Of a stretch of 26,151 nt of DNA, positions 2,763 to 6,426 are shown piece by piece. The number at the start of each line of letters is the position of its first letter. The stretch's first letter is position 1. The notes beneath the pieces were generated by a model, which worked only from the letters and a program-made list of their open reading frames with translations, did no database searches and was not told the origin of the DNA. The position numbers were made by a program, and so were the translations under genes. Source of the DNA: a virus; the IMG/VR virus record IMGVR_UViG_3300030430_002890, positions 1 through 26,151 of that record, one strand, 5' to 3'.

Positions 2763-4666
2763 CAGATTTCATCAGGACCATCATCAGCCCCAAAGCTGAA
2801 CAACGGCACACATTCAAACAGCCGGACAAATGGAGTTTCCTGGGCAACCCATCGGGTGCTGGGGTTGAAGTATCTGAACAGACAGCCCTGAGCCTGTCAG
2901 CGGTTTACAGCTGCGTACGGATCATTTCAGAATCATTGGCGGCATTGCCACTGGTGACCTACAGAAACACGGATGATGGCAGAAGGCAGGCGGATGACCT
3001 GCCCATATACGGCATCCTGCGTGACCAGGCAGATGAAAACCTTACAGCGTTTATGCTGTTTGAAACCCTGATCAGCCATGCCTGTACCTACGGCAACGGG
3101 TTTGCCTACATCACCCGCAACGGGCGTGGTGAGGTGACAGCCCTGACCCCAGTGGACCCTAGGAACGTGGAAGTGAAAATGACCACATCCGGGCGGGTGG
3201 CATATGAGTTCACCACGGGCCAGTTCCAGGGGGCATGGACATCTGACCAGGTGTTGCACATTCGGGCGCTGGGGCCATTGGGTTTGGTGGGATATTCACC
3301 CATTGGTTTGGCACGGGAAACCATCGGTTTGGGGATTGCGGCTGAACAGTATGGGGCCAACTGGTTTGGCAACAGCGGCACCCCATCGGGCATCCTGAGT
3401 GTGCCAGGCAAACTGTCTGATGAGGCGTTTGGCAACCTGCGGCGGAGTTGGGAAAAGCTCCACAAGGGCGCTGGCAATTCAGCCAGGGTTGCCCTGTTGG
3501 AAGCTGGTATTGATTTCAAGCCAATCAGCGTCAACCCGAATGATGCACAGTTCCTGGAAACCAGACGGTTCCAGGTTGCTGAGATTGCGCGTATTTTCCG
3601 GGTCCCACCATCCATGTTGGCTGACCTGGAGAATGCTGGCAGCTACGGTTCCATTGGTGAGCTGAACAGGGCGTTTGTGGTTCACACATTGACCCCATGG
3701 GCACGGCGGATTGAATCAGAAATCAAATCCAAATTGCTGCCAACCACGGGTGGCGTGTTTGCTGAATTCCAGTTTGACCATCTGTTGCGTGGTGATTTGG
3801 ATTCCAGATTCAAGGCATACCAGACGGCACGGCAGGCTGGGTTCCTGTCTGTCAATGACATCCGCAAAATTGAAAACCTGGACCCGATTGGTGGCAACGG
3901 TGATTTGTACCTGTCCCCATTGAACATGGAGGCATTGAAACCTGGTGATGCCCCAGAGCCAATGCCCATGGAGGATGAACAGCGGGCGCTGCCAACTGTG
4001 GATGTGGTGGCCCTGCGGGATGCTGCCAGGGGTAATGCCAAAGCCAACTGGGAACGGGCGCTGAACACCATTGCCCAGGCTGAGGTGAATGCAGCCCAAC
4101 GCCAGCTGGACCGTGAACCAGGCAAGGTGGCTGAATGGGCTGAAAAGTTTTATGAAGGGGAATACCAGCGGTTGGCGTTCAGACAGATCCTGCCAGCATT
4201 GACTGAGCTGGGCAACCAGTTGTCAAACATCATGGGTGATGAGTTGGGGCGCAACCCTGGCCAACTGAGTGTTGAAGCGTTGGAAAACATGGCACGGCGG
4301 TTTGCCACCAGGCGTTCACGGCGTTCAGCCCAAAGCATTGTGGCATCGGAAAACCGTGATGGTGTGATTGCCAGCTGGGCCAACGGTGCCCATTCCACAG
4401 ACATCATTGATGATGAAATGAGGCGGGCCGAAGGCAGCATTGTCCTGGAGCTGTACCGGCAGGCCGGTGTGAACCAGGTAGTTTGGCGGGCGCTGGGCAC
4501 CAATGCCCCAGTGAGCCTGGACGGTGTGACCGTCAAACCTGGTGAACCATTCATCCTGCGTGGCCAAACTGTGACATACACAGATGGCACAACCTATGAA
4601 CCCAGAACGGACATCAGACACAGCCCAATCAAAACTGGTGATGTGTCAATCATTCAGGCAGTTTGA
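2753..4666 (+). CDS. HK97-type portal with MuF-like C-terminal extension
   Basis: Residues about 1-400 form the portal, the dodecameric ring through which DNA enters the capsid. Typical HK97-portal segments are 'SAVYSCVRIISESLA' (49-63), 'YGNGFAYI', 'VGYSPI' and 'VPPSML...YGS'. Portals of this class are usually about 400 residues. Here a further 230 or so residues follow, ending in 'AEGSIVLELYRQAGVNQVVWRALG' and '...DIRHSP', which resembles the Mu gpF-like minor head (capsid morphogenesis) domain. The Cys residues usual in that domain are not seen. The TTG start is forced: an in-frame stop lies at 2738-2740 and SD AGGGG is 6 nt upstream. The stop overlaps the next gene (TGATG). The portal call is firm; the extension call is moderate. 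Confidence 0.93.
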   Translation: MALADFIRTIISPKAEQRHTFKQPDKWSFLGNPSGAGVEVSEQTALSLSAVYSCVRIISESLAALPLVTYRNTDDGRRQADDLPIYGILRDQADENLTAFMLFETLISHACTYGNGFAYITRNGRGEVTALTPVDPRNVEVKMTTSGRVAYEFTTGQFQGAWTSDQVLHIRALGPLGLVGYSPIGLARETIGLGIAAEQYGANWFGNSGTPSGILSVPGKLSDEAFGNLRRSWEKLHKGAGNSARVALLEAGIDFKPISVNPNDAQFLETRRFQVAEIARIFRVPPSMLADLENAGSYGSIGELNRAFVVHTLTPWARRIESEIKSKLLPTTGGVFAEFQFDHLLRGDLDSRFKAYQTARQAGFLSVNDIRKIENLDPIGGNGDLYLSPLNMEALKPGDAPEPMPMEDEQRALPTVDVVALRDAARGNAKANWERALNTIAQAEVNAAQRQLDREPGKVAEWAEKFYEGEYQRLAFRQILPALTELGNQLSNIMGDELGRNPGQLSVEALENMARRFATRRSRRSAQSIVASENRDGVIASWANGAHSTDIIDDEMRRAEGSIVLELYRQAGVNQVVWRALGTNAPVSLDGVTVKPGEPFILRGQTVTYTDGTTYEPRTDIRHSPIKTGDVSIIQAV

Positions 4667-6426
4667 TGGCAACAGATTTTCCCCAATCCGGTGATGATGA
4701 ACCAATCAGCCTGGGCAATTCCAGATTTGATGTGTTTGATCATGATTACGCTAGGGATTTGAAACGCAACCACCCAGATATCTGGGGCGCTGGTGGCAAC
4801 ATCCGTGGGAATGAAGCGTTTGAAATTTGGAAGCGGGCTGAACGTGGTGTGAGTTCCCCAGCCGTGTTGGCATGGATCAAAGAGCGTGAAGCCTGGAGCG
4901 CCAGGCATTTTGAAGATGGCAAGCAATTCCAGGATGCTGACCTGGGGCCAAACCTGTCCAATGTTGCTGGCATTGTTGCCCAGGTGAAATGGGGCACGGT
5001 TGGTGTGCTGGGTGAATCCAGAATGAAGGCCGTATTGGATCAGCTGAAGGAACGGCGTGAAACACGGGCTGACCTAGCAGATATTGAACCAGGTTTGTTT
5101 GTCAGGTGGCGGGCTGAAAAAGGTATCTACACCGGCGTGGTGGATGAGGTTGTGACATCCGGCATGGCCGAGTTTGGTGCAGAATCCATGGACACTGATG
5201 ATGTTGGGCCAGTAGCAATCATCACAGTGTTTGTGGAAATGAATGATGACCTGATTGAAACAGACAGGCAAGTGGGTGTGCCTGTGGTGGATTTGGACCT
5301 GGTGGCAGACCTGGGTGACGGATCAGAAGAACAGCGGCAGGTGACCGGCAACGTCAAAGTTGCATTGGAACGCAAGCTGGAAGAACACAATGATGAACAT
5401 GGGGATGATGCCAGGAAGCGGGCCACCATGTCCATGTTGGAACAAGTGTTTGAACGTGGTGTTGGGGCATACAAAACCCAGCCCAGTTCAGTGCGCCCAA
5501 GCATCCCCAATGCAGAAGCATGGGCCTATGCACGGGTGAATTCATTTCTGTATGCCCTGGCCAATCTGAAGTTCAGACGGGGCAAGCATGACCTAGATTT
5601 GTTGCCCAGCGGGCACCCAGAATCAAGTAAGGATGAACGTATGAGTGATGAAAAACGGGAACGTGTTGGTGTGGATCAATACACCACTGAGGATGAAGCA
5701 ATGGCACGGGCTGATGCCCTGGGGTGTGATGGCACCCACAGCATGACTGTGGACGGTGAGACCATCTATATGCCATGTTCAAGCCATGCGGCATATCAAT
5801 CTGTGACTGGTGGCAGCGGTGGTGGCGGTGGCGGCTACAGCCGATCAGCCCCAGCAGAAAAGCTGGAACGCCGTGCCCACCAGGAAGTCAAGTTGGAATC
5901 TGGTGACACAGCTGACACGATTGTGGGCTACGCAAGTGTTTTTGATTCAGAAAGCCGTGACCTGGGTGATTTTGTGGAATACATCAAGCCAGGTGCGTTC
6001 ACCAGGGCAATCAATGAACAGCATGATGTGCGGGCGCTGGTGGACCATGACCCCAAGATGATTTTGGGCCGGACCAAATCCGGCACCCTGCGTTTGTCCC
6101 AAGATGAACATGGGTTGCGCACAGAGATTGACATTCCCCACACAACGGTTGGCCAGGACACTTTGGAATCAATCAGGCGTGGTGATTTGGATGCCATGAG
6201 TTTTGGATTTGTTGTGCGGGATGATTCATGGGAAGAGCGTGACGGAAAAACGGTGCGGGAAATCCGTGACCTGGATTTGTTTGATGTTTCCGTGGTCAGC
6301 TTCCCTGCCTATGAGGACACAACCGTGGCTGTGCGTGGTTTGAAGCGTGAAGCTATGCGGCGGGATACACCCAAACCTGAAATGTTGCGGCTGTATCTGC
6401 GGATTTCAGATGGGGTTGCCGAATAA
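4666..6426 (+). CDS. HK97-family prohead protease with long N-terminal extension
   Basis: The C-terminal part, about residues 415-555, is the capsid maturation protease: 'VGYASVFDSESRDLGDF', 'IKPGAFTRAI', 'LVDHD...LGRT.SGTL', 'MSFGFVV' and 'LFDVSVVSFPAYEDT'. His 461 and Ser 512 are the likely catalytic residues. The extension includes a charged region with 'DYARDLKRNHPDIWGAGGNIRGNEA', a possible small barrel near 'GLFVRWRAEKGIYTGVVDEV', a 'WAYARVNSFLYAL' segment near 290 and a 'TTEDEAMARADALGC' segment. A glycine-rich linker (GGSGGGGGG) precedes the protease. Ordinary HK97-type proteases are roughly 200 residues, so this 586-residue protein is a multi-domain version. The ATG overlaps the portal stop. 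An internal start at 5641 may give a short form. Confidence 0.92.
   Translation: MATDFPQSGDDEPISLGNSRFDVFDHDYARDLKRNHPDIWGAGGNIRGNEAFEIWKRAERGVSSPAVLAWIKEREAWSARHFEDGKQFQDADLGPNLSNVAGIVAQVKWGTVGVLGESRMKAVLDQLKERRETRADLADIEPGLFVRWRAEKGIYTGVVDEVVTSGMAEFGAESMDTDDVGPVAIITVFVEMNDDLIETDRQVGVPVVDLDLVADLGDGSEEQRQVTGNVKVALERKLEEHNDEHGDDARKRATMSMLEQVFERGVGAYKTQPSSVRPSIPNAEAWAYARVNSFLYALANLKFRRGKHDLDLLPSGHPESSKDERMSDEKRERVGVDQYTTEDEAMARADALGCDGTHSMTVDGETIYMPCSSHAAYQSVTGGSGGGGGGYSRSAPAEKLERRAHQEVKLESGDTADTIVGYASVFDSESRDLGDFVEYIKPGAFTRAINEQHDVRALVDHDPKMILGRTKSGTLRLSQDEHGLRTEIDIPHTTVGQDTLESIRRGDLDAMSFGFVVRDDSWEERDGKTVREIRDLDLFDVSVVSFPAYEDTTVAVRGLKREAMRRDTPKPEMLRLYLRISDGVAE
5628..5643 (+). promoter_or_regulatory. 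Internal SD and ATG inside the protease gene
   Basis: TAAGGA at 5628-5633 is followed 7 nt later by an in-frame ATG at 5641. This would give a 261-residue product starting 'MSDEKRERVGVDQYTTEDEA' and containing the whole protease domain, close in size to stand-alone HK97-type proteases. The SD is better than that of the full-length start at 4666. Nested head genes with internal starts are known (lambda C/Nu3). That this one is used is inference. Confidence 0.5.

Follow-up and report, generated by a model that had tools for sequence, protein, structure and literature searches.

The protease open reading frame at positions 4666–6426 lies between the portal and capsid genes (portal–protease–major capsid) of a tailed phage, sequenced as IMGVR_UViG_3300030430_002890. 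We analysed positions 1 to 26,151 of this record, a stretch of 26,151 nt that we call the window; all coordinates are those of the window. The capsid protein is encoded by a gene of its own and is not fused to the protease. The long start, ATG 4666, shares one base with the portal stop codon TGA (4664–4666) and has no Shine–Dalgarno (SD) sequence of its own. Within the frame, TAAGGA is followed by a 7-nt spacer (TGAACGT) and then by ATG 5641–5643, which is residue 326 of the 586-residue frame opened at 4666. An earlier sequence-only reading had described the SD, its 7-nt distance from ATG 5641, the shared frame and a 261-residue product, and re-reading the sequence confirmed each of these. RNA structure near 5641 showed nothing notable (z −0.19). 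Elsewhere in the window, positions 410–1150 hold a D12-class DNA adenine methyltransferase-like gene, flanked by the small and large terminase genes. The features of the protease locus are:

4666–6426, + strand: full open reading frame, 586 amino acids; start overlaps the portal stop (TGATG)
4678–5079, + strand: N-terminal helical module with 'GGNIRGNEAF' (residues 5–138), from the structure model; also conserved among close relatives (clades A, B and C)
5089–5310, + strand: weak Hva1_TUDOR-like patch (residues 142–215); 14 bits, low model confidence, missing from clades B and C
5341–5640, + strand: DUF5824-like module, a mobile cassette (residues 226–325)
5628–5633, + strand: internal Shine–Dalgarno sequence TAAGGA
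5641–6426, + strand: nested open reading frame from the internal ATG, 261 amino acids (DUF3721 and S78)
5680–5790, + strand: DUF3721 domain (residues 339–375), Pfam E 4.5e-8
5809–5835, + strand: glycine-rich linker GGSGGGGGG, of varying length among relatives
5896–6357, + strand: Peptidase_S78 prohead protease domain (residues 411–564), PF04586, E 4.9e-55

A prohead protease fused to a mobile cassette

In the open reading frame (ORF), a mobile N-terminal cassette is fused to a prohead protease composed of DUF3721 and S78 domains. The PF04586 match spans profile positions 8–162 of 165, covering the catalytic domain and placing the protein in the S78 family; phrog_80, a head maturation protease family, matches the ORF with E 1e-59; and the DHD and MSFGF motifs are conserved in the S78 domain, a predicted protease. 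Foldseek searches with the model of this domain returned herpesvirus proteases (assemblin) and, more weakly, T4 gp21, as expected for S78.

The extra 325 residues consist of the helical module, the weak Tudor-like patch and the DUF5824-like module. They had been taken for unknown domains, a description that does not hold for their end, which is DUF5824-like and aligns with a large family. We call the module DUF5824-like because its score of 21–23 bits (E 1e-4) lies below the Pfam cut-off of 25 for DUF5824 (PF19141); the Tudor-like patch likewise stays below the cut-off for Hva1_TUDOR (PF11160), with 14 bits against 24.1. In the structure model, confident domains are separated by disordered stretches at residues 140–222, 326–333 and 383–414, and Met326 opens a linker, since model confidence falls at residues 326–333. 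The short form comprises DUF3721, the glycine linker and Peptidase_S78, so that the earlier description of it as the protease alone was wrong in detail.

Modules of these kinds are shuffled between portal C-termini and protease N-termini, the set comprising DUF3721, Hva1_TUDOR, the DUF5824-like module and an 'ARH...WG' helical module (L149–L161, L173–L186 and L042–L056). For halovirus HGTV-1 (L020 and L025), the 888-residue prohead protease weakly matches the DUF3721 region; in a related viral contig, a 1396-residue frame has a protease-like N-terminus followed by DUF5824-like and DUF3721-like stretches. We rejected the idea that DUF3721 inherently marks the start of a gene, as in L162–L186 it lies inside larger proteins, mostly with no preceding Met. 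Among open-licence papers, we found none on DUF5824.

The internal site within the window

A score for contiguous SD matches that takes spacing into account gives 5641, with its 6-nt match, a tie for first rank among the 135 internal in-frame ATGs of the window genes, and only two other internal ATGs, 18975 and 16053, have matches of at least 5 nt. By anti-SD duplex energy alone, 5641 is 15th of 135 and is equalled by three other ATGs of the same gene, and synonymous recoding of the gene yields at least one equally good ATG in 96% of trials, the figure for the 5641 codon itself being 2.3%. Duplex energy did not discriminate between sites in the window, and we therefore added the spacing-aware score and the comparison with relatives, and report both measures. 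From the window alone, the site is suggestive, because its rank depends on the measure. As to the two other matches, 18975 (spaced SD of 6 nt) and 16053 (5 nt) lie in ORFs listed from 18852 and 15909, respectively, and may be the true starts of mis-called genes.

These figures bear directly on the possibility that the site arose by chance, AAG GAT being no more than the Lys-Asp codons of a charged linker and the Met an ordinary residue. Other ATGs of the gene do match its duplex energy, and recoding readily produces equals somewhere in the gene; nevertheless, 5641 ranks at the top of the window when correct spacing is required, and the homologous border in relatives is strongly enriched over two internal controls (below). 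We consider chance improbable.

Conservation of the border in close relatives

The order helical module–DUF5824-like module–DUF3721–S78 is common to three clades. In clade A (the window and L001–L009), the border reads AAG GAT GAA CGK ATG throughout. Clade B (L010–L018), which is about 65% identical and lacks the Tudor-like patch, has AAA GGC GAA GAC ATG, such that the border Met occupies the same site in both clades and a spaced AAGG core is present despite differing codons (AAG GAT versus AAA GGC). Among the Mets shared across clades, only the border Met is preceded by a spaced SD core throughout clades A and B; in clade C, this property belongs to a neighbouring Met. There (L055 and kin), the border runs AAR GGR AAR AAC, a Ser codon and ATG, with AAGG(A/G) standing 9 nt before the in-frame ATG; in the L055 type, the Met that aligns with 5641 lies four codons downstream of this SD-bearing one and has no SD. 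In clade B, the SD falls short of the strength given by synonymous recoding (−4.2 versus −6.7), and the site shows clearly reduced synonymous variation only in this clade (2nd percentile, compared with the 18th in A and the 40th in C). Genome contigs yielded only four relatives.

The long start also has a consistent setting, lying within TGATG or TAATG in 9 of the 10 sequences shown from clades A, B and C. This setting is relevant to the proposal that only the short form matters, with the upstream frame a passenger and the protease gene truly beginning at 5641. The lack of an SD at the long start would fit such an arrangement, but conservation of the N-terminal module extends across the three clades and to many other settings, and the position of the long start next to the portal stop is typical of coupled phage genes; we give this proposal very little credence.

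Recurrence of the start signal at module borders

The DUF5824-like module is found at the portal C-terminus in some phages and before the protease in others, often before a protease–capsid fusion. We drew on the best 80 of at least 545 DUF5824-like loci listed, and examined the border in 45 strict, divergent lineages in which the module is fused upstream of other parts.

First, a Met stands 3–16 residues past the HP end motif in 27 of the 45 lineages, compared with about 14 expected (binomial p 1e-4), and a spaced SD precedes 19 of these 27 border Mets (70%). The frequency is 13% for the other internal Mets of these ORFs (p 4e-11) and 18% for linker codons other than Met (p 1.5e-8). These p-values are optimistic, given the common ancestry of the lineages and the Lys/Glu-rich composition of the linkers, which favours SD-like strings. 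Second, synonymous recoding does not fully account for the border SD, which is stronger than it predicts (z −0.55 versus +0.12; p 0.003, optimistic for the same reasons). Third, portal ORFs in which DUF5824 is followed by another domain, a small negative control (L042-type, L053, L076, L086, L187 and L189), showed no spaced SD with Met. Conservation of the internal start signal is strong across the broad family and mixed in the sister clades, where the SD is weak in B and attached to a shifted Met in C. Judged from these sequence comparisons, the site at 5641 is raised above chance.

The main rival explanation, ahead of chance, is that the Met and SD are relics of fusion, left from a once separate protease gene that lost its upstream stop; only the long form would then be made, and any short enzyme would come from self-cleavage. 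The border Met is missing from several fused relatives (L095, L230, L254 and L260), cassettes have clearly been shuffled between genes, and the weak SD of clade B and the shift in clade C point the same way. A relic would not, however, be expected to keep SD and ATG beyond amino-acid constraint in lineages whose linkers share less than 50% identity, and among the relatives we found none in which the cassette forms its own gene ahead of the protease, the unfused cassettes instead ending portal genes. We regard a relic as unlikely, although less so than chance. Because the SD and ATG recur at the same border in divergent relatives and not in the negative control, we favour, with some reserve, the reading that ATG 5641 is a real, used internal start at a module border. 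The phage would then probably make both long and short forms of the enzyme.

Probable internal starts at the protease–capsid border

As a positive control, we turned to 36 lineages with cassette–S78–capsid ORFs of about 800–1040 residues (L101, L104, L211, L024 and 32 others). An SD with ATG is present at the protease–capsid border in 34 of the 35 lineages that have a Met there, often as AAGGAGG; for Mets within the capsid body the figure is 3.4%. The capsid protein of these fused ORFs is therefore very probably translated from an internal start. Within this group of genes, module borders would be the sites of internal starts, and the border in the window is a milder case.

One isolate, Roseobacter phage CRP-831, has such a fused ORF annotated as a single 'major capsid protein'. 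In Roseobacter phage CRP-823 (L272:3026–3066), an additional T within a run of Ts puts the cassette and the protease–capsid part in separate frames, and the two parts are annotated as two major capsid proteins; this is either a sequencing error or a real split. We set CRP-823 aside as a natural proof of an internal start, as the frame break amounts to one base and lies downstream of the junction Met.

Comparison with known nested head genes

The prohead proteases of the HK97 type (gp4) belong to the same S78 family and occupy the same portal–protease–capsid order as in the window. Standard members are similar in size to the short form and, to our knowledge, do not carry a DUF5824-like cassette. 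Among nested head genes, Mu I/Z is similar to lambda C/Nu3. Lambda C and Nu3 are nested, in-frame, 3′-coterminal head-assembly genes, of which the long product has the protease (PMC8508860, citing Shaw and Murialdo 1980; PMC3224144) and the short product, the C-terminal part, is the scaffold and has no protease (PMC8508860, PMC3224144); P2 O is described as similar (PMC8508860).

In the window, ATG 5641 provides the in-frame internal start with a ribosome site that characterizes a nested head gene. The short product is the scaffold in lambda, whereas here it would be the protease, holding the S78 domain, and the extra part is N-terminal. The gene would function as a nested head gene yet stand outside the C/Nu3 kind, because the arrangement is inverted. 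The parallel that had been drawn with nested head genes of other phages is no more than an analogy, the short product of lambda C/Nu3 and of herpesvirus UL26/UL26.5 being the scaffold.

Herpesvirus UL26/UL26.5 is comparable in that capsid protease and scaffold genes are nested in frame and in that the S78 model has the fold of herpesvirus proteases. However, UL26.5 has its own promoter and encodes the scaffold only (PMC2949831), whereas in the window control would be exerted through an internal ribosome site, and the short form would be the enzyme. Pseudomonas phage MD8 has a fused protease–scaffold–capsid gene with a ClpP-like protease, and the portion of the report available to us does not mention an internal start (PMC8508860); the window resembles such fused head ORFs in combining head modules in one ORF and differs in its separate capsid gene. 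A literature search of open-licence papers found no description of this internal protease start.

A proposed scheme and its implications

We infer initiation at 5641, the coexistence of the two forms, their ratio and the location of the long form along the following lines. At the fusion border, the protease would have kept, or gained, its own translation start. Ribosomes finishing the portal gene would re-initiate at ATG 4666, which overlaps its stop, and yield little of the 586-residue form, and ribosomes binding TAAGGA would start at ATG 5641 and make the 261-residue form, the main enzyme pool. Within the procapsid, the cassette may direct the long form to the portal vertex, a location we propose because other phages carry the cassette on portal C-termini. 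The earlier reading had also envisaged two products, a long one that would join the portal or scaffold and a short one that would be free.

More tentatively, and with rather less confidence than we place in the start itself, the window may belong to a large and little-recognised group of tailed phages, most of them marine, with a cassette–protease–capsid frame and a ribosome site at each border, in which nested, C-coterminal products would set the stoichiometry: few cassette-bearing proteins, more protease and very many capsid proteins. The window would be a member with its own capsid gene, in which only the first border is nested.

If the start at 5641 is used, it would represent the inverse form of the classic nested protease–scaffold gene, and phage 'major capsid proteins' of 800–1040 residues would really be several nested products. 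It would also show how phages tolerate the constant shuffling of domains onto essential head enzymes: because the enzyme keeps its own start, the cassette would be an option rather than a burden.
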